Positions 28,750 to 39,010 of a stretch of DNA of 59,578 bases are shown here, piece after piece. The stretch covers positions 1-59,578 of the forward strand of contig JAGXIO010000041.1 in assembly GCA_024635555.1 (NCBI GenBank), read 5' to 3'. The number at the start of each line of letters is the position of its first letter. Positions within the stretch are counted from its first letter, which is position 1. Below the pieces are notes generated by a model. The model worked only from the letters and a program-made list of their open reading frames with translations, was not told where the DNA came from and searched no databases. A program made the translations under genes and the position numbers. The stretch comes from Saccharicrinis sp. GTDB taxonomy: Bacteria > Bacteroidota > Bacteroidia > Bacteroidales > Marinilabiliaceae.

Positions 28750-29514
28750 TTATTCAGATTCGCTTTGGCAACACGAACCTTTTATGGCCTCTTTTGTATT
28801 TTCCATTACCTCACCTCCCTTTTGCTCCATGTGCATTTGCGGGTGGAGTTTATTTTCGGGTGAACTTAAAAATGGGATGCCCAAACTAAGTCCGCGAAAG
28901 ATAAAGATTAGGCCGATAATAACCACCAGTACCGGTATCACTTTGTTCACTTTTTGGCGGATGGCCACGCTAGCCATATTACCCACCAAAGAAATGCCCA
29001 GCATCATGGGGATGGTTCCCAAGCCGAACAAAATCATAAACAGCGTGCCGGTTACAACATCACCAGTACCTATGGCACCGGCAATGGCCAGATACAACAG
29101 TCCGCAAGGTAGCAAACCATTAAGCTGCCCTATTAAAAATAAGCCAGCGAAGGATCTTTTTACAAACAGTCGCTGAATACCTTTGCGCACCATACTCACG
29201 ATGGGAATTTTTTGAGGTTGCACACTTTTAAATAGCGATGGGAGCAGTACCGACAGAATCATCAATGCACCCATGGCCACCGAAACCCATTGCTGAAAAC
29301 CCACCAATGAAAGCCCTTGGCCTATCAATCCGAATATGGCGCCCATGATACCGTACGTAAGCGTACGCCCCAAATTATACATTACCCCACTAAGCACTTT
29401 TGCACCAATCCCCCTGCCGTGCAAAGGCAAGCTAAGTGCAATGGGTCCGCACATACCGGCACAATGCAAACTGCCCATTAAGCCTAGAACAAAACCTGTT
29501 AAGATTATTTCCAT
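28750..29514 (-). CDS. TauE/SafE-like (COG2836) membrane protein of the cco cluster
   Basis: The 254-residue protein has about six hydrophobic segments. It carries GSLHCAGMCGPIALSLPL near the start, where H-C-x2-M-C resembles copper-linked members of this family, and repeats a similar GQLNGLLPCGLLYLAI segment later. It is found in cco clusters of many Bacteroidota and Proteobacteria. A role in copper supply for the oxidase is plausible from context and the Cys/Met motif. A sulfite-export role is unlikely here. It precedes ccoI. Confidence 0.85.
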   Translation of the reverse strand: MEIILTGFVLGLMGSLHCAGMCGPIALSLPLHGRGIGAKVLSGVMYNLGRTLTYGIMGAIFGLIGQGLSLVGFQQWVSVAMGALMILSVLLPSLFKSVQPQKIPIVSMVRKGIQRLFVKRSFAGLFLIGQLNGLLPCGLLYLAIAGAIGTGDVVTGTLFMILFGLGTIPMMLGISLVGNMASVAIRQKVNKVIPVLVVIIGLIFIFRGLSLGIPFLSSPENKLHPQMHMEQKGGEVMENTKEAIKGSCCQSESE

Positions 29515-29671
29515 TTCCTATTTTTAAGCATCCAGATATAAGAACAAAGTATCTGGATTTTATTATTAAGATAATTGTATCGCAGAACAGCTTTGCACTA
29601 GCTGAGCAAGTCGGACTGCGCTCATGAATGACATCCGATGCACGCCTGTCGAACTCACTCCGCCCGTTGTC

Positions 29672-29940
29672 AAAGTGCTTTACCCCGCTCGTGACTGTCA
29701 ATGCGTCATCTGTTAAGTTCTTCGCACGGTTCGTGACGGTCATTGCGTCAACTGCGAAGTGCTTTGCGAAGCTCACGACTGCCATTGCGTCATCCACGAA
29801 GTGCTTTGCGACACCTACAAAGTGCTTCGCAAAGCTTGTGACTGTCAATGCTTCACTTGTGAAGTACTTTGCAAGGCTCGCGTCTATCATTGCGTCACAT
29901 ACGAAGTGCTTTGTAAGACCCAACAAGCACCTTGTAATAT
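29672..29940. repeat. Degenerate tandem repeat array, 42-bp unit with 21-bp half units
   Basis: AAGTGCTTTGCG-like cores begin at 29673, 29715, 29757, 29799, 29820, 29862, 29904 and 29925. The spacings are 42, 42, 42, 21, 42, 42 and 21. All are multiples of 21, so reading frames stay open through the array on both strands. One minus-strand frame gives a 14-residue repeat of the type AKHFVSDAMTVTSL. The array fills the ccoH-TauE gap. Units differ at many positions, so it is old. Confidence 0.85.
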
Positions 29941-29951
29941 ACAAATTAAGC

Positions 29952-30392
29952 TTATCGCACAACAAAATCCTTTGAAACCATATATTTATGGTCCCCTTCA
30001 CCCCACGAAACAGATACTTGATACCTACCTTTTAATAATTTATCGGCAGCTATAAAAACCACTTTCTGCCCCGAAGGTATCAGAAGAGTAATATCGTTTC
30101 TTTTATCCGATGCTCTATAAAAATATATTTTTTTTATAAAACCATCCTCCGCAACCGAAGGTGCAAGGTGCACCTGCACACCGTTAATTCCGTTTTCGAT
30201 AAATATACTATCCTTATAAACCGCCGACCGTTTGTCCATTTCCATCTTTAATGAATATTCGGCACCCTGACGGTAATAATCTTTAGTAACCAAGTCGTTG
30301 TTCTCGCGCAGCGAAAAAACCACAAAGGATATAATCCACGCGAAGAATATAACGAAGAAAATTAATATGCCGTGTCCCCAGTTAAATTTCAT
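29952..30392 (-). CDS. ccoH: FixH-family protein
   Basis: The start at 30392 (MKFNWGHGILIFFVIFFAWI) is preferred over 30419. The 146-residue product has a single N-terminal membrane helix with the FixH start W-GHGI, then VTKDYYRQGAEYSLKMEMDKR, the standard family segment. A periplasmic beta domain follows. FixH/CcoH assists assembly and stability of cbb3 oxidase. It lies between ccoG and the repeat array in the same transcription direction as the rest of the cluster. Confidence 0.9.
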   Translation of the reverse strand: MKFNWGHGILIFFVIFFAWIISFVVFSLRENNDLVTKDYYRQGAEYSLKMEMDKRSAVYKDSIFIENGINGVQVHLAPSVAEDGFIKKIYFYRASDKRNDITLLIPSGQKVVFIAADKLLKGRYQVSVSWGEGDHKYMVSKDFVVR

Positions 30393-30461
30393 GCTTCTTT
30401 TAGTTTTTATACAAATCAAGTATTGAACCCTTGCAGGGCTCTATTCAATACGGTTAATTTA

Positions 30462-30669: not shown

Positions 30670-32031
30670 TCATTTTTCTCTCTTTGGCGCTATAAAGTTG
30701 GCTCTTGTTGTTTCCAGCATCTTGTCTCCAACATATAAACCCAATTGCACCTGTGTGTTTTTGGTGTCGATATCGGCTTTAGACCGTTTAAGAACAATCA
30801 CGCCGTCAAAACTACCATTTTCGTTTAGATGAATGGGGTGTTCGGACAAATAAAATGAACTATTCTCTGGGCTTAATATCTTTAGCTTAATTATTTTAGC
30901 TCCATCTGTTTTGTTTACAATTTTTAGCTGATAGATGTTTGAAATAGTATCGTTGGCCGCTTCCTGAAACATGGTTCCTGGAACCCGCAATAGCGAAGCA
31001 TCTATTTCGGTGCGTAAGGATATAGCGGCCACCAGTGCTGTGAGCAGAACCAGTAAAACCCCCGCATAAGCATAGGTTCGTACGCTTTTAATACTACTTT
31101 TACCCGTTTCAATACTGTATTTTGAAGTAAAGCGAATCAGGTTTTTTGGGCGACCTATCTTCTTCATCACAATGTTACACTCGTCGATACACGCGGTACA
31201 GTTCACACACTCCAGCTGAGTGCCATTTTTTATGTCGATACCTGTGGGGCACACCTCAATGCAAGCACCACAATCAATACAATCGCCTTTTACCTTCCGC
31301 GGTTCGCCCCGTTTGTAATCGTAGGCCACGGTTATCGATTTGCTATCCAACAACACACCTTGCATGCGACCGTAAGGACAAAACATGGTACACACGCCTT
31401 CGCGCAAGTAGGAATATATCCAAAAGTAAAATCCGGTTACAGCGGCCATGGCGGCATATACCCCCCAATATTCGCCAATGGGGCTTTGCCATATCACCCA
31501 TAACTGCTCCGGGCCGGTAAACCACATGATAAACACATTGGTAAAAAACAGGGTGACCAGAAAAAATAAGATGTATTTTAATGCGATACTAAGTTTAGTG
31601 GGTGTTTTTTTTCGTTTCCCGCGTTGGTAATTCCCATGGAATACATACTCTATCCGGCGATACACCATTTCCATAAAAACAGTGTGCGGACAGGCCCAAC
31701 CACACCAAAACCTTCCAAAAACCGCCGTAAATAGCACGATAGAGACAACCACCGTTGCCATCAGTATGGCCATTATCTCTGTGTCCTGCGAATATACCGT
31801 TACGCCAAACAAATGGAACTTACGGTTTATCACGTCGATAAGCATAAAGGGCTTGCCGCCAATTTTAATAATGGGCGCCATTATAAAAAATCCCAACAGA
31901 AAAATAGCCACCACAGTCCGCCGGGTGTACCATTTACCTTTGGGCTGCCGTGCTTTTATCCATTTACGCTTGCCCTTGTCGTCGATGTTATCGGGACGTT
32001 CGCGAAAGGTTTTTTTAATGAGGGATATCAT
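30670..32031 (-). CDS. ccoG: Cytochrome c oxidase accessory protein, 4Fe-4S membrane protein
   Basis: The start at 32031 (MISLIKKTFRERPDNID) is the first that fits CcoG. The protein of about 453 residues has about five membrane helices, with GWACPHTVFMEMVYR in the membrane part and two ferredoxin clusters (CIDCGACIEVCPTGIDI, CVNCTACIDECN). A C-terminal Ig-like periplasmic domain comes last. CcoG is thought to reduce copper during cbb3 oxidase assembly. It sits between ccoP and ccoH, with a 326-bp gap upstream and 277 bp downstream. Confidence 0.94.
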   Translation of the reverse strand: MISLIKKTFRERPDNIDDKGKRKWIKARQPKGKWYTRRTVVAIFLLGFFIMAPIIKIGGKPFMLIDVINRKFHLFGVTVYSQDTEIMAILMATVVVSIVLFTAVFGRFWCGWACPHTVFMEMVYRRIEYVFHGNYQRGKRKKTPTKLSIALKYILFFLVTLFFTNVFIMWFTGPEQLWVIWQSPIGEYWGVYAAMAAVTGFYFWIYSYLREGVCTMFCPYGRMQGVLLDSKSITVAYDYKRGEPRKVKGDCIDCGACIEVCPTGIDIKNGTQLECVNCTACIDECNIVMKKIGRPKNLIRFTSKYSIETGKSSIKSVRTYAYAGVLLVLLTALVAAISLRTEIDASLLRVPGTMFQEAANDTISNIYQLKIVNKTDGAKIIKLKILSPENSSFYLSEHPIHLNENGSFDGVIVLKRSKADIDTKNTQVQLGLYVGDKMLETTRANFIAPKREK

Positions 32032-32357
32032 GGGGTGAGAAATATTATGGTTATTGCGGTGTTGTTGCTTTGGGATATAAAAAAATGACCCGGGTGCAGT
32101 TCTTGTGGTATGCATCTCAGGATGTTTACTTGCACTTTTCGAAATCAGAATTTGCTTTCATAAGCCTGCTGCTTCGTTCCGACGCAAAGCTACTCATCCT
32201 ATTTTATTAATTTTGTGGTGCGTCGGATGTGCATGACGTCATATCCCCCGGGTTAAAACCCGGGGCTATTCATATTCAACCATTCCATGGTTGTTCCGAA
32301 AGCTGTATACCCAATAATTTAGTGTAAGTGTGCAGATAAACGAGATTCAATACCCAC
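32032..32357. other. Gap between ccoP and ccoG
   Basis: This 326-bp gap holds the two-hairpin repeat at 32246-32293 and otherwise unremarkable sequence. No open frame of coding character or promoter was found. A second repeat module lies after ccoG. Confidence 0.5.
32246..32293. repeat. Two-hairpin REP-like module, copy B
   Basis: CCCCGGGTT-aaa-ACCCGGGG is followed by CTATTCATATT and CAACCA-ttcca-TGGTTG. It has the same architecture and linker as 30462-30507, with different stem sequences that keep pairing. Compensated stem changes suggest the structure is what is retained. Confidence 0.65.
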
Positions 32358-32942
32358 CTACTCGCAAGCCTCCCCTTGCGGATCCTTGGGATTAACGGGG
32401 GATGAGCCTACCATTGAATTTAAAATATAGTTGGCCAGATATTTTATTTCTTCCTCCTGCATCATGTTTTTGTATGGCGTCATGCCTTTGGTGGGGCGGC
32501 CATTAGCTATCACGTCCATTACGTTTTCTACGCTGCACCCGTTTATCCAGTAATTATCGGTAAGGTTGGGTCCTATGGAATTCCCTTCGCCTCCGGAGCC
32601 ATGACAGGCCATGCAGGCATTTTTTTCGTACAGGCCTTTCCCTTTTTCAATCATCTGGGCCATGCTCAACTCGGGCATATCGGCTTGGTTGGCCTCTTTT
32701 AAAACCGCCTGCTGCGATTCCCATTCAGCCACAGATTTGGCATACTCACTGGCCTGATCGCGCTCATTACCCGGGTAGCCAAAGTAATGGATCAAATAGA
32801 ACAACGAAAAACCGATGGTGACCAAAAACAGCAGGGTAATCCACAATGGGGCGGGGTTGTTCTGCTCCCTTATTCCATCATACTCGTGCGACTCTATGTT
32901 GTCGAAGTTTTCGTTGGCGTCTTTATTGTTATCCTGGCTCAT
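32358..32942 (-). CDS. ccoP: cbb3-type cytochrome c oxidase subunit III (mono-heme)
   Basis: The 194-residue protein has a cytosolic N-terminus (EYDGIREQNNPAPLWITLLF, the CcoP signature), one membrane helix (about 33-50), and a single cytochrome c domain with CMACH and axial Met in TKGMTPYKNMM. Proteobacterial CcoP usually has two hemes; only one CxxCH is present here. It passes electrons to the catalytic subunit. It follows ccoQ with 2 nt between. Confidence 0.92.
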   Translation of the reverse strand: MSQDNNKDANENFDNIESHEYDGIREQNNPAPLWITLLFLVTIGFSLFYLIHYFGYPGNERDQASEYAKSVAEWESQQAVLKEANQADMPELSMAQMIEKGKGLYEKNACMACHGSGGEGNSIGPNLTDNYWINGCSVENVMDVIANGRPTKGMTPYKNMMQEEEIKYLANYILNSMVGSSPVNPKDPQGEACE

Positions 32943-32944
32943 GC

Positions 32945-33154
32945 TTACTCGTTTTTATTGTTTTGTTGATTGTCTATTGGCGCCATATCATCATCCTCCA
33001 AAATAGAATTTTTATATTTTTTCAGATCGGATTTAGGCGTACGTATGGTTTTATAAACTACGATGACAAACAGCGTGATAAATATAGCTATACCAATAAT
33101 GTAATACCACTCTATACCCTTTACTCCTTTTAATACTTCGCTTACAAATCCCAT
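32945..33154 (-). CDS. ccoQ: CcoQ-like small subunit
   Basis: This 69-residue protein has one membrane helix (about 17-36, YYIIGIAIFITLFVIVVYKT) followed by a charged tail. Size, topology and position between ccoNO and ccoP (3 nt and 2 nt gaps) match CcoQ, which stabilises the oxidase complex. The sequence itself is too short for firm family assignment, so the call leans on context. The tail (DDDMAPIDNQQNNKNE) is low in complexity. Confidence 0.75.
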   Translation of the reverse strand: MGFVSEVLKGVKGIEWYYIIGIAIFITLFVIVVYKTIRTPKSDLKKYKNSILEDDDMAPIDNQQNNKNE

Positions 33155-33157
33155 ATC

Positions 33158-35317
33158 CTACTTTTCATTTTCGACACCCGAAATATCCTTACCCAATTTA
33201 TGCAGATAGGCAATCAATGCGATCATCTCTTTGTCGGGCTCTATTTCGATACCGGATGCTTTTAAATCCTCCACTATCTTATTGGCCTGCTTCATATAAT
33301 CTGCAATAGCCTCATCTTCGTACCCCTCGCGATACGGAACGCCCAAGGTTCTCATCACCTTAATTTTTTTGGGCACCAAGTCAAGTACAACATCATTTTC
33401 GGCCAGCCACTTATACGGGGGCATAATGGTTTGCGGATTCATCTCCAAAGGCTCCATAAAGTGATTGTAATGCCACACCGCTGTTTTGTATGTGGTGGAA
33501 CCGCCTATGGACACATCGCCCAAGTATCCGGCTCTGGCCAAATCCGGACCTGTGCGTCGCGAACCCCATTGGAACGGATGGTCATAAACAAACTCCCCTA
33601 TCTTGGAGTATTCCCCATAACGATCCGTCTCCCAGCGCAAAGGTCGTATTTGCTGCGAATGGCAATTGTAACATCCGTTAGATATGTAGAGGTCGCGTCC
33701 GGTGAGCTCCAGCGGGGTATAAGGTTTAACGGCCGCAATTTTAGGGATGTTCGATTCCACGCTCAACAGAGGGATAATTTCCACTGCACCGCCAATGGCA
33801 ACTGCAATAAAAACAAATATAGAAAATCGCACCCCTCTGCGCTCCAACCACCTATGCACATTTTCGCGATCGGGATTCCTCTTGGCAGGATTTACCAGCG
33901 CCGGTGCTTCCGATGGTTCATCGGCCACCATGTTCCCCATTTTCATGGTCTTTATTATATTAAACAAAAACATGAGAAACCCTGTGAAAAATAACAGCCC
34001 TCCCACAATCCTAAAGGTATAAAGAGGAAGGATTTGAATGGTTGTTTCCAAAAAGTTAGGATAGGCGAGCGATCCTGTTGGGGTATATTCTTTAAGCATT
34101 AACCATTGTGTAATGGCGGCCCAATAAAGTGGAATGGCAAACAAAAGAATACCTAAGGTAGCCACCCAAAAATGCGCATTGGCCAATTTACCCGAATATA
34201 ATTTTGTTTTAAACAAACGGGGCACCAGCCAATAAAACATACCAAAAATAAGTCCGCCGTTCCAGCCCATGCCCGCAATGTGGGTATGGGCAATGGTCCA
34301 GTCCGTGAAATGACTAATGGAATTTACCGTTTTCAGTGCCATCATAGGCCCTTCGAAGGTGGCCATACCATAAGCGATCAAAGCAACCACAATAAATTTG
34401 AGATCGGCTCTTTCACTTACCTCGTCCCATGCTCCGCGTAAGGTGAGCAATCCGTTTATCATACCGCCCCAAGACGGTGCTATCAGCATAATCGAAAAAG
34501 TTACGCCCAGTGCTTGCAGCCAGTCGGGCAGCGCATTGTACAACAGGTGGTGCGGACCTGTCCACATATATAAAAATATAAGGCTCCAAAAATGGATGAT
34601 GGAGAGTTGATACGAATAGATGGGTCTATTGGCTGCTTTGGGCAGATAATAGTACATCAGTCCCAACCATGGGGTAGTCAGGAAAAAGGCTACGGCATTA
34701 TGCCCGTACCACCATTGCACCAAGGCATCCTGTGCTCCGGCATATACAGGATAGCTTTTGAACAGCGACACCGGTATTTCGATGGAGTTTACGATATGCA
34801 GGATGGCCACACCCAAAAAGGTGGCGAGGTACCACCAAGCGGCGGCATAAATATGTTTAACCCTGCGTTTGATGATGGTACCTATCATGTTCCATCCAAA
34901 CAGCACCCACGATATGGCTATTAGTATGTCGATAGGCCATTCGAGCTCGGCGTATTCTTTGCCGGTGGTGAAGCCCAGCAATAAGGTAATGGCTGCAAGT
35001 ACTATTACCAGCTGCCAGCTCCAAAAATGTATTTTGCTGATAAGGTCGTTAAACAACCTCGCTTTGAGCAAGCGCTGCAAGGAGTAATAAATACCCGCAA
35101 ACATGGCATTACCTATGAAAGCAAAGATAACCGCATTGGTGTGCAATGGACGCACCCTGCCAAAGGAGGTGTACTCGAGCCCAAGGTTAAAAACCGGATA
35201 GGCCAGCTGCAACGCGGCCAACAAACCAACAATCAAGGCTACCATGCCCCACACAATAGTTGCAACGGTAAAGTTCCTTACAATTGCATTGTCGTATTTA
35301 AATTTTTGAATCTCCAT
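33158..35317 (-). CDS. ccoNO: Fused cbb3-type cytochrome c oxidase subunits I and II
   Basis: This 719-residue protein joins CcoN (about 1-460) to CcoO (about 490-719). The CcoN part has the metal-ligand histidines in RPLHTNAVIF, WWYGHNAVAFF, TGPHHLLYN and HTHIAGMGWNGG. The CcoO part has a membrane anchor (SIFVFIAVAIGGAVEIIPLL) and a heme site NGCYNCHSQQIRPL. The N-to-O fusion is the usual Bacteroidota form. It reduces oxygen to water and pumps protons. It lies 3 nt before ccoQ and 45 nt after ccoS. Confidence 0.96.
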   Translation of the reverse strand: MEIQKFKYDNAIVRNFTVATIVWGMVALIVGLLAALQLAYPVFNLGLEYTSFGRVRPLHTNAVIFAFIGNAMFAGIYYSLQRLLKARLFNDLISKIHFWSWQLVIVLAAITLLLGFTTGKEYAELEWPIDILIAISWVLFGWNMIGTIIKRRVKHIYAAAWWYLATFLGVAILHIVNSIEIPVSLFKSYPVYAGAQDALVQWWYGHNAVAFFLTTPWLGLMYYYLPKAANRPIYSYQLSIIHFWSLIFLYMWTGPHHLLYNALPDWLQALGVTFSIMLIAPSWGGMINGLLTLRGAWDEVSERADLKFIVVALIAYGMATFEGPMMALKTVNSISHFTDWTIAHTHIAGMGWNGGLIFGMFYWLVPRLFKTKLYSGKLANAHFWVATLGILLFAIPLYWAAITQWLMLKEYTPTGSLAYPNFLETTIQILPLYTFRIVGGLLFFTGFLMFLFNIIKTMKMGNMVADEPSEAPALVNPAKRNPDRENVHRWLERRGVRFSIFVFIAVAIGGAVEIIPLLSVESNIPKIAAVKPYTPLELTGRDLYISNGCYNCHSQQIRPLRWETDRYGEYSKIGEFVYDHPFQWGSRRTGPDLARAGYLGDVSIGGSTTYKTAVWHYNHFMEPLEMNPQTIMPPYKWLAENDVVLDLVPKKIKVMRTLGVPYREGYEDEAIADYMKQANKIVEDLKASGIEIEPDKEMIALIAYLHKLGKDISGVENEK

Positions 35318-35362: not shown

Positions 35363-35584
35363 TTATTTTATCTCTTTGTCAATTTGCTTGTCAATTTCCA
35401 CTTTGTTTTCCGTGGGTTCCTTTTCGTTCGCATCATCCAACGTTTCCTCATCATCAAATAATATGCGCACCGATGACGAATACGTATCTTCGTATTGGCC
35501 TGATTTTACGGCCCAGATAAACACACCCAAAAAAATAAGCGCAGCCAATAAACTTACCCCTACCAATAAATATAGTATGTTCAT
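35363..35584 (-). CDS. ccoS: cbb3-type oxidase assembly protein
   Basis: The 73-residue protein has an N-terminal helix (about 3-27, LYLLVGVSLLAALIFLGVFIWAV) followed by SGQYED, the CcoS signature, and an acidic tail with DDEE. CcoS is needed for cofactor insertion in cbb3 oxidase. It precedes ccoNO by 45 nt and follows the cytochrome gene at 35597 by 12 nt, so the redox module and the oxidase genes appear to be one transcript. Confidence 0.9.
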   Translation of the reverse strand: MNILYLLVGVSLLAALIFLGVFIWAVKSGQYEDTYSSSVRILFDDEETLDDANEKEPTENKVEIDKQIDKEIK

Positions 35585-35596
35585 GGCTGTTGACTT

Positions 35597-36526
35597 TTAT
35601 ATTATCTTTTCCTCTTCTGTTATAGGTTCTTTGCCCAGTACAAATATTCTTTTTACTTGAAAAAGTAGGTAAAATATAAAGAACCAAGCTGTTGCAACCG
35701 CTCCGGTAAAACCAAAGATAATCCAAAGTGGCGCTTTGTCCACGGTGTTCCACATGGCTCTTTCCTTATTTAGTGCAGGCTTGTCGTTAACCAGCCCAAT
35801 AGGTAGTGTTTGTTCTGCTTTTACTTCGCCATAGGCCTCCACTTGCTCCACTTGAGCAATCAAATGCACATTGCCCAAGCTGTCGCCAGGCAGAGTGCCA
35901 TCCCAGGAAAAATAGGCCAGTCCTTCTTTGTTGGTAGTTTTTATATCGCCCAATGGCAAATTACCGAAGTATCTTTTGGCTTCTAATTTGATGCCTACGC
36001 CGCCAACAGGATTGGTGACTTGGTTTAAACTTCCGGTGAGGCTTACTTCCACCATCTTTTTAATTTCATCGTACCTAAGCCCCAAAGCCAAAAGGGTTCC
36101 TTCGGGTATATTGGTCTCAATTTTTTCGGCCGTTTCCTGAACATAGCTTGCATTAAAACTTCGAACATAGGAAATTACATTCCAAATATCAGCTTTGCTC
36201 AAGGCGCTTTTGAAGGATGGCATGGTAGCACGCCCCTCGCTGACTTTATAAAAAATAGCCCCATCGGTATTGCTCTGAAATTTCTGAGCGGCAGGATCGC
36301 CGGGTGAAGGAACGAGCATGGCGTTATAGTTGCCCTGCCCTGGCATTCCGTGGCAAACCTGACATTGTGCCGCGAAAATATCGGCACCCGACTGCTGCAT
36401 GGATTCGGTAAACTGCACCGGGCTCAACTTCCCCTGATGCTCGGCGGGAACTACCCATTCCGTTTGCGCTGATAATTTAAGTACAGCGCAAACACAAATA
36501 ATTAAGGTTAAAAAAAACTTGTTCAT
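35597..36526 (-). CDS. Membrane-anchored cytochrome c with beta-sandwich domain
   Basis: A signal peptide (MNKFFLTLIICVCAVLKLSA) leads to one cytochrome c domain with CQVCH near residue 55 and an axial Met in RATMPSFKSAL. A beta-rich domain of about 110 residues follows (about 145-255), then one C-terminal helix (WIIFGFTGAVATAWFFIFYL). It is exported and tethered to the outer face of the inner membrane. It lies between nrfD-like and ccoS, so it is likely the electron carrier from the NrfD/Fe-S pair to the oxidase. The sandwich-domain type is not certain. Confidence 0.85.
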   Translation of the reverse strand: MNKFFLTLIICVCAVLKLSAQTEWVVPAEHQGKLSPVQFTESMQQSGADIFAAQCQVCHGMPGQGNYNAMLVPSPGDPAAQKFQSNTDGAIFYKVSEGRATMPSFKSALSKADIWNVISYVRSFNASYVQETAEKIETNIPEGTLLALGLRYDEIKKMVEVSLTGSLNQVTNPVGGVGIKLEAKRYFGNLPLGDIKTTNKEGLAYFSWDGTLPGDSLGNVHLIAQVEQVEAYGEVKAEQTLPIGLVNDKPALNKERAMWNTVDKAPLWIIFGFTGAVATAWFFIFYLLFQVKRIFVLGKEPITEEEKII

Positions 36527-36536
36527 TGCTGCTTCG

Positions 36537-37874
36537 TTAAATTATTTTAGTTTTTGTTCCTTCATCTTCTTCGGCCATTTCCCATATAGGTATTACGGGG
36601 AACAGCTTGGCCAGCACCGATATAATCATAATCCCTAATATAATGGAGCCTGCAGTAACCGCACCCTCAATAACGGTTGGTTGATATATGACCCACTCGC
36701 CCGGTAAAAACTGAATAGGTAAGAAGGGATGTTCCATGGTGGGAATAACGATAATATAGCGTTTTAACCAGGCGCCCACTATTACAAACAAAGCAATTAA
36801 AAACAAGGGAAGAGGCTTACGGAATGGTTTCCACAACAATACAATCATGGGTATCAGCAAACCAAATATTTGTGATAGCCAGAACATAACGGCATGTCTG
36901 CCCGCAAAGAGCTCATGTATGTGTATGGCATCAAACTCCTTCATTTTATAAGCAGGAACCACAAACTCGTTCAGGTTGAAATAAAAATATATTACGCAAA
37001 CAAATTCTAGCAATTTACCCATCTTATCAAACAAAGGCTCATCAAGATATTGGCGTAATTTATAGTTGTTGCGGAAAAAGAATACAGCAATAATTACCGC
37101 TGCCATGCCCGTAACAAAAGCACCCGTTAAAAAGTAGGGCCCAAAAATAGTACTATCCCAGCCGCTGCGCGAGTTTACCGCCAGCAACCATGAGGTAACC
37201 GTATGTATGGCAAAGGCCGTGGGGATAATCAGGATAATAAGCAAACGAGTGGCACTGAACAACAGTTTGTATTGCTTGGGATGGTGTGTCCAGTTAAACG
37301 ACAGAATTTCGTACAGCTTCATTTGCCATTTTGGTGCATGTAGCATCCTGCCACGGGCTATAGCCAAATCAGGTATTAAAGGCAGAAGATACAACAACGT
37401 GCTAATAACGAGATAAGTGGTTACCACCGTAACGTCCCATAAAATAGGCGACTGAACCCTCCCGTATAAAAATACGTTAAGCAAGCGTTCGGGCCGTCCC
37501 ATATCCGAAACGATAACCAAACCGGCCACGGCGGCAAAGGCCACCGCGATAATCTCGGCTATTCGGGTAATGGGTTTTATCCATGTATAGCCCAACAGTC
37601 CAATAACGCCACTTATGAGCATGCCCACCAGGGCCGTGGCCACAAAAAACACGAAGTTGGCAATGTACATGCCCCAGCTCACCATGTCGCGCATTCCGGT
37701 AACTATCAATCCTTTGTTATACTGAATAACATAGGCATATATGCAGGCTACCAGTGCCATGGTTAAAAACAGCATCCAATTTATAAAGGCGTTGTTAAAC
37801 CCAACTGGCCTAAGTACATCGGTAGCTATTTTGTCGAGCTTTTCCTTATTAATTTTAATGTTATGATCCGACAT
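36537..37874 (-). CDS. NrfD/PsrC-family integral membrane subunit
   Basis: The 445-residue protein has eight to ten hydrophobic segments and the NrfD pattern WGMYIANFVFFVATALVGML near residue 66 and VIVSDMGRPERLLNV near 120. In polysulfide reductase and alternative complex III, such subunits bind and oxidise or reduce quinol. The start at 37874 is the only sensible one. The gene lies between a Tat-signal Fe-S protein and a cytochrome c gene, all in one direction. No catalytic molybdopterin subunit accompanies it. Confidence 0.92.
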   Translation of the reverse strand: MSDHNIKINKEKLDKIATDVLRPVGFNNAFINWMLFLTMALVACIYAYVIQYNKGLIVTGMRDMVSWGMYIANFVFFVATALVGMLISGVIGLLGYTWIKPITRIAEIIAVAFAAVAGLVIVSDMGRPERLLNVFLYGRVQSPILWDVTVVTTYLVISTLLYLLPLIPDLAIARGRMLHAPKWQMKLYEILSFNWTHHPKQYKLLFSATRLLIILIIPTAFAIHTVTSWLLAVNSRSGWDSTIFGPYFLTGAFVTGMAAVIIAVFFFRNNYKLRQYLDEPLFDKMGKLLEFVCVIYFYFNLNEFVVPAYKMKEFDAIHIHELFAGRHAVMFWLSQIFGLLIPMIVLLWKPFRKPLPLFLIALFVIVGAWLKRYIIVIPTMEHPFLPIQFLPGEWVIYQPTVIEGAVTAGSIILGIMIISVLAKLFPVIPIWEMAEEDEGTKTKII

Positions 37875-37890
37875 TTGTATTCATTTATAG

Positions 37891-37967
37891 ATTGTTAGAT
37901 AATAGATCGTTAGATTGTTAGATAATAGATCTTTAGATGCTAGATTATTAGATAATAGATTGTTAGC
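37891..37967. repeat. Short TTAGATAATAGAT-type repeats
   Basis: TTAGATAATAGATC/T occurs about four times in the gap between the Fe-S and NrfD genes. Similar motifs occur near 58885-58925 and 28681-28711. The gap (185 bp) contains no gene. The meaning is unknown. Confidence 0.55.
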
Positions 37968-38059
37968 TATTTGGCTTATTCACAAACGCAAAATCCTCAA
38001 TACACAATCCAGTATAAGTTCTACTATTCAGATAGTTAACTATAACGAAGTGTTATATA

Positions 38060-39010
38060 TTAGCTATGATGACTATCCGGTTTTTCGGGCGTATCGAATA
38101 CCCTGTCCTTGGGTGGCAAATAATACACGCGCGGCTTTGTACCTAAATCCTCCATCAATCTATATCCTGCATTTTTTTCGAGCAGTTCACTCAACACCAC
38201 CGTTTGTCGGGTGGTTCCATTGGTTACTGCGTTTTCATTTTGGTCGCCAAAATAAAACACACCATTGGGGCATGATCTAACGCAGGTGGGCAGCTCGCCA
38301 CCTCGCAAGCAATCGGCACTGAACAGGCATTTGCTCACGGTACCTTTACGCTGTGGAACATTTGCTTCCACATCATATTCCATGGGCTCTTCCTGATAAA
38401 GCTGTTCACGGAAAGGCTTTTCCCAGTTAAATATACGGACCGAATACGGGCAGGCAGCCATACAGAACCTACATCCTATACAACGCTCATTGTCTATAAG
38501 CACAATACCATCCTGCCGTTTAAAAGTGGCATTAACCGGACATACCGACACGCAGGGCGGATTATCACAATGCATACAGGGCTTAGGCATATTATAAGGC
38601 GCCGACTGCGGATTGTCCTGCATCACCAGTGTATTTATGTGGTATTGGTATGGGTGTAGATGATGGTGTTCCTGACAGCCTTTGATACATTCGCGTGCAT
38701 TACGACATTTGGCTAGGTCGATAACCATTACCCAACGTTTGCCGGCAATACCAATCCTACCGCGCGACTGCAAAACCTCCGTATCCAACTTCACTTTCTT
38801 AACCTGCGATTTAGGAATCTCCACCAGCTTATTGTCGGCGGTGAGCACTTTAATATACTCTTCGTCAACGCCTGCTGCCGAGGTAAAACCCGAAACTACA
38901 GCACCCGTTGAGGCCACTGCCCCAATCAATCCCAGCTTGCGCATAAAATCCCGTCGGGAATTCTTGCTCTTCGAATTGTCAAGCTCATTTTTTCTACTAT
39001 CCGAACTCAT
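38060..39010 (-). CDS. Tat-exported ferredoxin-type subunit with four Fe-S clusters
   Basis: A twin-arginine signal (SRRDFMRKLGLIGAVAS) sends this 316-residue protein across the membrane. It has four cysteine sets: CRNARECIKGC, CMHCDNPPCVSVCP, CIGCRFCMAACP and CLFSADC-LPTCVRSCP, the DmsB/NrfC/ActB2 type. It should sit on the outer face with the NrfD-like subunit and pass electrons onward. It is the first gene of the respiratory cluster. The two arginines and all clusters appear intact. Substrate and partner assignment is inference. Confidence 0.92.
   Translation of the reverse strand: MSSDSRKNELDNSKSKNSRRDFMRKLGLIGAVASTGAVVSGFTSAAGVDEEYIKVLTADNKLVEIPKSQVKKVKLDTEVLQSRGRIGIAGKRWVMVIDLAKCRNARECIKGCQEHHHLHPYQYHINTLVMQDNPQSAPYNMPKPCMHCDNPPCVSVCPVNATFKRQDGIVLIDNERCIGCRFCMAACPYSVRIFNWEKPFREQLYQEEPMEYDVEANVPQRKGTVSKCLFSADCLRGGELPTCVRSCPNGVFYFGDQNENAVTNGTTRQTVVLSELLEKNAGYRLMEDLGTKPRVYYLPPKDRVFDTPEKPDSHHS

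Follow-up and report, generated by a model that had tools for sequence, protein, structure and literature searches.

A three-gene module in Saccharicrinis sp. (Bacteroidales) most likely encodes a reduced menaquinol:cytochrome c oxidoreductase, separate from both alternative complex III (ACIII) and DsrMKJOP, which would fill the complex III role in many Bacteroidales. The module lies on contig JAGXIO010000041.1 of GenBank assembly GCA_024635555.1 (5.3 Mb in 259 contigs); the whole stretch analysed, positions 1 to 59,578, is referred to below as the window. The module comprises an iron-sulfur (Fe-S) protein, an NrfD-family membrane protein and a tethered cytochrome c:

38060..39010, minus strand: Fe-S subunit, 316 amino acids (aa); Tat-type signal; four Cys sets, of which II and III are complete and I and IV each lack the usual second Cys
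36537..37874, minus strand: NrfD-family membrane subunit, 445 aa; ca. 10 hydrophobic segments and a putative quinol site
35597..36526, minus strand: cytochrome c subunit, 309 aa; a haem domain with one CxxCH and a beta domain, between a signal peptide and a C-terminal membrane helix

A preliminary description of the window had suggested a reduced quinol:cytochrome c oxidoreductase supplying the adjacent cbb3 oxidase, and this appears to be the best fit to a distribution that alternates with ACIII and to linkage with cco and cox genes. The genomic case for the complex III reading is strong: the anatomy of the module, its conservation, its linkage and its distribution complementary to that of ACIII are observed directly.

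Distribution among oxidase-bearing genomes

COX1, NrfD and cytochrome b were compared across 199 genomes of the same order, each at least 95% complete, with the sets compiled by hand from the search listings. COX1 matches of at least 410 bits were classed as aa3-like and those of 337-406 bits as cbb3-like. Matches in the nitric oxide reductase (NOR) range (ca. 220 bits and below) and one 260-bit match in G230 were not counted (G, C and L numbers are our labels for genomes, contigs and loci); rows under ca. 187 bits were not covered, and fragments may be missed. NrfD was called module-type at 48% identity or more, a threshold that does not by itself separate a second type found on contig C239 of the host (the host's own C239 copy, at 50%, was not counted). 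ActC, the NrfD-type subunit of ACIII, was recognised at 26-31% identity and 117-164 bits, and strong cytochrome b at 129 bits or more.

Any COX1 match was found in 91 of the 199 genomes. Setting aside 20 of them, whose matches were all weaker, leaves 71 genomes that encode an aa3- or cbb3-like COX1. Module-type NrfD is present in 44 of these 71 oxidase genomes, ActC in 33, and at least one of the two in 69: 36 have the module type only, 25 ActC only, 8 both and 2 neither. The mutual exclusion of module and ActC inside oxidase genomes gives a Fisher p of 4e-10, with kinship ignored. In the two genomes with neither (G182 and G205), subunit II carries neither the CuA motif nor CxxCH, whereas four out of four caa3 subunits II compared carry both; because of this absence, the two enzymes are probably quinol oxidases. 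The module type also occurs in 14 out of 15 cbb3-only genomes. Under the genus label g120, ActC is found in G136 and the full module in G203; under g76, G230 has ActC and G092 the full module.

Out of the 36 genomes with the module type only, 35 lack a strong cytochrome b (G191 has one), and 32 of the 35 have no cytochrome b match at E 0.001. Among the 35, G056, G203 and G213 have weak PF00033 matches of 39-47 bits in open reading frames (ORFs) of ca. 910 aa, which were not counted. At least one NrfD locus was inspected for each of the 35, and the Fe-S, NrfD and cytochrome c genes stand together in 31 of them, spanning 24 family labels by hand count. The count for G122 is based on two fragments that lie on different contigs, and in G215 the NrfD and cytochrome c frames are fused into one 769-aa ORF. 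Thirty-one near-complete genomes of 24 family labels thus combine an oxidase and the full module with no ActC and no strong bc1 cytochrome b, and by the usual marker genes they would seem to have no complex III. If the proposed function is correct, a small NrfD module fills the complex III gap in many Bacteroidales, offers a simple system for questions of NrfD-type quinol oxidation and proton pumping, and provides an extra marker for aerobic capacity in metagenomes.

The host itself differs from these genomes. A PF03916 search of its genome returned three NrfD genes, in the window and on contigs C239 and C73. Contig C73 carries an ACIII cluster (ActA, fused ActB, ActC, ActD, ActF and ActE; L014 5150-12996), its genes assigned by order and sequence, with ActB and ActC also scanned. 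On C163 (L016 4378-8452), genes for a Rieske protein and cytochrome b (single copies) and for a 765-aa multihaem/TPR protein follow in a row. The module is therefore no stand-in for a missing complex III in the host, and the earlier suggestion that it replaces a bc1 complex finds no support in this genome. The preliminary description would have been contradicted by a full ACIII elsewhere combined with a module not conserved beside cco genes; the former was found, while the linkage to cco genes proved to be conserved. Within the genus, the module occurs in seven out of nine genomes, all seven with COX1 matches. In same-genus G001, a genome 100% complete, the module accompanies cbb3 and caa3 genes, and ActC is absent. 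The two genomes that have neither module nor COX1 match, G002 and G008, retain cytochrome b; presence of the Rieske/cytochrome b unit is thus not tied to that of the oxidases, and its partner in these two genomes is something other than such an oxidase. G002 also has ActC with no COX1 match, which counts against a strict rule tying ACIII to oxidases.

Gene order in the window and in relatives

The module opens a series of nine minus-strand genes that run in a single direction from 39010 to 29952. After the Fe-S, NrfD and cytochrome c genes, the remaining six are:

35363..35584, minus strand: ccoS, cbb3 oxidase maturation (TIGR00847)
33158..35317, minus strand: fused ccoNO, catalytic and mono-haem subunit of the cbb3 oxidase (NF011053, 1142.8 bits)
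32945..33154, minus strand: ccoQ-like 69-aa membrane ORF, assigned by position, with no family match above cut-off
32358..32942, minus strand: ccoP, one CxxCH
30670..32115, minus strand: ccoG accessory protein (TIGR02745)
29952..30419, minus strand: ccoH (FixH domain, PF05751)

Coordinates and strand agree with the preliminary description, which had placed the three genes, in one direction, directly before ccoS-ccoNO-ccoQ-ccoP; its observation that no molybdopterin catalytic subunit is present also holds for the nine-gene cluster, which likewise includes no periplasmic dehydrogenase. Pfam assigns 4Fe-4S dicluster domains, NrfD (PF03916, 109 bits, cut-off 25.8) and Cytochrome_CBB3 to the module. 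The NrfD and cytochrome c genes are separated by 10 bp, the cytochrome c gene and ccoS by 12 bp, and the Fe-S and NrfD genes by 185 bp. This last spacer (37875-38059) contains many degenerate ATCTATTATCTAACA-like repeats; by BLAST coordinates, the corresponding gap is ca. 20 bp in same-genus G003 and G004.

All six other genomes of the genus that have the module share the order Fe-S, NrfD, cytochrome c, ccoS, NO, Q, P, G, H. A wider scan of named genomes used the best-scoring 80 of 566 related stretches, a sample biased to close relatives and partly overlapping the survey genomes. On the same strand and no more than 9.5 kb downstream, caa3-type genes were found in 50 loci, cbb3 genes in 7 and both in 3, so that a caa3 or cbb3 gene follows the module in 60 of the 80. 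The remaining 20 loci comprise one with nap genes, four with only an SCO gene before the contig end, five with too little sequence and ten with none of these. Both the Fe-S and the cytochrome c gene were found in 70 of the 80. The gene-order comparison proposed at the outset thus finds the module conserved beside cco or cox genes; because the order recurs in all six same-genus genomes and the oxidase linkage in 60 of the 80 loci, the arrangement is not due to chance. In some cbb3-linked loci, L121 and L123 among them, an ORF of 800-850 aa that resembles the P-type ATPase CcoI, from a reading of its sequence only, lies between module and ccoNO. At L224, an act cluster follows the module as a separate set.

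Not all copies adjoin oxidases. The module precedes nap clusters at L063, L065 and L141 (NapA of L063 was confirmed; the other nap names were assigned by reading) and a 1203-aa ORF read as NarG at L066. These copies before napA-like clusters and a narG-like gene, together with the 26 of 53 survey copies for which the contig shows no oxidase gene inside 12 kb, speak for a general quinol dehydrogenase, one that feeds a periplasmic cytochrome pool and many reductases, with the oxidase as one attachment among several and no special complex III role. We regard such a dehydrogenase as unlikely, since linkage to caa3 or cbb3 genes dominates (60 out of 80 loci, versus 1 out of 80 for Nap) and the pattern complementary to ACIII holds inside oxidase-bearing genomes. 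Less probable by far is a role in oxidase assembly, sensing or protection in place of electron transfer: the module does sit with the maturation genes ccoS, ccoG and ccoH, but it also occurs with caa3 and nap clusters where none of these three is labelled, and the module is missing from 25 oxidase genomes that have ActC. We rate that explanation the least credible of those considered.

Two further linkages were rejected. At L057-L059, a 22% CcoNO-like gene had been taken as NorB, and the cluster proved to be caa3-type, with SCO and subunits I, III, IV and II, the last with haem c. A NosR linkage at L063/L065 was dismissed, the genes there forming a nap cluster. A plasmid search gave matches of less than 60% identity only, at most ca. 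31% in the 10 listed out of 32 rows.

Subunits of the module and related systems

The Fe-S protein contains SRRDF and a hydrophobic stretch, judged by eye to be a Tat signal. Four Fe-S cysteine sets had been described; sets II and III stand as complete, but set I reads C-x5-C-x3-C, with the second Cys absent, and set IV reads KC-x2-S-A-D, with Ser in place of the second Cys. The combination of Ala in set I and Ser in set IV is found in 78 of 86 Fe-S proteins compared (the window included, and some loci counted twice). Of the other eight, four (L065, L145, L073 and L110, the last two not read by pattern) retain the set IV Ser, with a set I residue that is different or unread; the other four (L015, L067, L068 and L069) have Cys in set IV, and L068 alone also has Cys in set I. 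The set IV Ser is present in all 31 survey genomes with the Fe-S gene at the locus and in 39 out of 39 Fe-S proteins of loci fetched from survey genomes. The altered Cys sets I and IV are therefore a family-wide signature. By analogy with DmsB and NarH, the two distal clusters would be bound jointly by sets I and IV, and the two closer to the quinone by sets II and III. The alteration would thus lie at the docking end for a molybdenum subunit, in keeping with electron delivery to cytochrome c. At L060 (2998-3884) and L146, in a metagenome assembly (G053), the Fe-S gene appears as two ORFs, from either a frameshift or an assembly error.

Hydropathy of the NrfD protein gives 10 hydrophobic segments. 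It belongs to the NrfD family by its PF03916 domain, over cut-off, and the adjacent Cys-rich Fe-S gene. By motif and not by structure, D124 and S142 correspond to the Asp, Glu, His or Ser in transmembrane helix 2 and the conserved Ser at the quinone pocket described for the family (PMC8076601). D124, S142 and D147 are invariant in 15 out of 15 aligned sequences, the window included. In the putative quinone-site string, Asp, Ser and Asp are spaced much as in DsrP; the corresponding stretch of the host's own ActC includes His and a longer loop. A profile of the NrfD protein retrieved ACIII chains only from the Protein Data Bank (PDB) at E 0.001 (ActC 211-218 bits, ActF 26-31). Its nearest NCBIfam model is DsrP (137 bits, cut-off 350), against which the host's ActC scores 75. 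In a tree of 31 NrfD proteins, with long branches for L195 and ActF, ActC forms a separate clade (100/99) that leaves the window protein outside. Module, C239-type and DsrP proteins fall together opposite ActC (86/76, drawn open), with DsrP as a clade of its own (100/100). Support for module monophyly is weak (41/23), and neither the Nar-linked copy at L066 nor the C239 type is resolved from the module. Elsewhere in the phylum, NrfD relatives at 36-39% identity stand beside ActB-like proteins (L206, L208 and L209); they are possible intermediates between the module family and ACIII.

A structural model of the cytochrome c subunit (pLDDT 88.5, pTM 0.55) shows the four parts listed for this subunit above, and its top Foldseek match is ActE of ACIII (6lod_E). 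Profile matches also include ActE, ranked below a cytochrome c552.

The module thus resembles ACIII in having an NrfD-type quinol subunit whose best PDB profile matches are ActC, an Fe-S protein and a monohaem cytochrome c, in its frequent position before caa3 oxidase genes, and in a genomic distribution complementary to that of ACIII. The kinship with ACIII is looser than first proposed: NrfD falls outside the ActC clade, and the best-scoring solved relative of the Fe-S subunit in the PDB is PsrB (122.8 bits), with ActB chains at 70-88. NCBIfam lists no ActB model, and likeness of the Fe-S subunit to ActB and to DsrO is not on one scale. The module lacks the multihaem wire ActA as well as ActD, and it has only one NrfD gene, with no second NrfD protein ActF; in the host, ActA is on C73, and ActD and ActF occur there only. 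Its Fe-S subunit is a 316-aa protein alone, with no molybdopterin-like half as in ActB; NrfD has Asp where the host's ActC has His; and Cys sets I and IV are altered, while the host's ActB alters set III. Full membership in ACIII was rejected, since ActA, ActD and ActF are absent and NrfD lies outside the ActC clade.

DsrO (172 bits) and DsrP give the best NCBIfam matches of the Fe-S/NrfD pair, and a DMGRP-R quinone-site string is common to the module NrfD and DsrP of the phylum's sulfur bacteria. However, both scores lie under the cut-offs (200 for DsrO), the cluster has no DsrM, DsrK or DsrJ, and DsrO has four Cys in set I (five loci printed) and a canonical set IV where read. In spite of the best NCBIfam names, membership in DsrMKJOP was rejected. 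The module cluster differs from cytochrome bc1/b6f in having no cytochrome b or Rieske protein. With NrfCD- and Psr-type pairs it shares an Fe-S/NrfD pair donating to periplasmic acceptors; it differs from them in the absence of NrfA/B or a molybdopterin catalytic subunit and in its dedicated tethered monohaem cytochrome c and oxidase linkage. The QrcC and QrcD models match the module weakly (121 and 69 bits, far under their cut-offs of 400 and 570). A Qrc-like enzyme would work in reverse, with periplasmic cytochrome c reducing menaquinone. Such a direction is very unlikely, since the module is most often linked to terminal oxidases, enzymes that take electrons from cytochrome c, and no periplasmic dehydrogenase is found in the nine-gene cluster.

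The host's C239 contig (L015 768-5241) carries a second Fe-S/NrfD module, in the gene order Fe-S, NrfD, Ig/TM protein, cytochrome c, cytochrome c, with both cytochromes monohaem. Its Fe-S and NrfD proteins belong to the same families, at 47-50% identity, but its haem and Ig/TM domains are on separate proteins and set IV has Cys. It adjoins further haem proteins (L015 6392-10858) and other ORFs, and may serve another periplasmic or extracellular acceptor. When 392 genomes across the phylum were searched with the DsrP model and 21 were followed with the window NrfD, nine genomes outside the order yielded NrfD copies at 44-50% identity, nearest to C239. The third gene lacks CxxCH in nine out of nine of these loci, which are thus of the split type, and the genomes also have ActC-like genes. 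In these samples, which fall short of a complete search, cytochromes of the fused form were seen in the order alone.

Proposed electron path

We infer the reaction of the module, its direction, the quinone species, the order of electron carriers and assembly as one complex from the genes described above. The NrfD subunit would bind and oxidise menaquinol near the periplasmic side; electrons would then move through the Fe-S clusters of the Tat-exported protein and on to the one haem of the tethered cytochrome c, which would in turn reduce the CcoO/CcoP haems of the cbb3 oxidase. In relatives, the module would serve a caa3 oxidase or sometimes a NapA or NarG-like enzyme. In ACIII, ActA is needed for aa3 activity, and the Fe-S clusters have been mentioned as a dead-end wire (Lorencik et al., PMC8552683). 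Since the module has no ActA-like multihaem wire, we infer that its Fe-S chain must carry the current; such a live chain would be the main mechanistic difference from the pathway discussed for ACIII. By analogy, proton pumping by the module NrfD is possible, because possible ion pathways have been proposed for NrfD-like subunits by Calisto and Pereira (PMC8076601).

Several observations weigh against the proposed function. The case is a genomic one, and the AlphaFold model of the Fe-S subunit is poor (pLDDT 52) and was set aside. The host itself encodes both ACIII and a Rieske/cytochrome b unit. Related genomes make the Fisher values overstate independence. Among the 35 genomes, G086 and G144 have NrfD alone at the locus, and G170 and G174 have NrfD and cytochrome c with no Fe-S gene there (partners were not sought elsewhere in these four genomes); with these incomplete loci set aside, 65 of the 71 oxidase genomes have ActC or the module. 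By the survey thresholds, five of the 49 module genomes lack a c-type oxidase; contigs end near the module at four of the five loci, and in G052 (L061) there is room on the contig and no oxidase. G087 and G225 have NOR-range COX1 matches. Only 27 of the 53 survey module copies lie within 12 kb of an oxidase gene on the contig; for ActC copies the count is 16 of 35, and fragmented assemblies lower both. Nap-linked copies adjoin napGH-like genes, already a quinol-oxidation supply, and at L129 (8340-11302) and L214 (3020-5713) a family NrfD gene with no Fe-S or cytochrome c partners directly follows a narK-like ORF.

The menaquinol:cytochrome c oxidoreductase reading bears on a broader proposition, for which we put the chances at about even: that the module, next to bc1/b6f and ACIII, represents a third type of quinol:cytochrome c oxidoreductase. 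It would have three subunits, be the only complex III of many Bacteroidales, use a live Fe-S wire with two distal clusters rebuilt (sets I and IV) for one tethered haem c, and have been swapped between cbb3, caa3, Nap and Nar modules. No description of the module as complex III was found in the open-licence PMC literature, covered mostly from listings. An NrfCD pair with no molybdopterin subunit is mentioned as a quinol:acceptor reductase in Melioribacter (PMC3534657), and PMC10564751 deals with other NrfD families.

Some loci depart from the three-gene form. L213 and L217 have NrfD alone in surroundings different from those of L129 and L214, and the role of the NrfD genes that lack electron partners at these four loci is puzzling. 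At L071, L072, L074 and L075, NrfD and cytochrome c genes occur with no Fe-S gene at the locus; at L071, L072 and L075 a divergent ORF of ca. 975 aa on the opposite strand resembles an FAD/Fe-S dehydrogenase. L163 (6385-8706, G109) has Fe-S and NrfD genes with no cytochrome c gene alongside and adjoins an rnf-like cluster. In the window, a 189-aa ORF (29432-30001) made of repeated AKHF-like peptide units overlaps the end of ccoH and is probably spurious.

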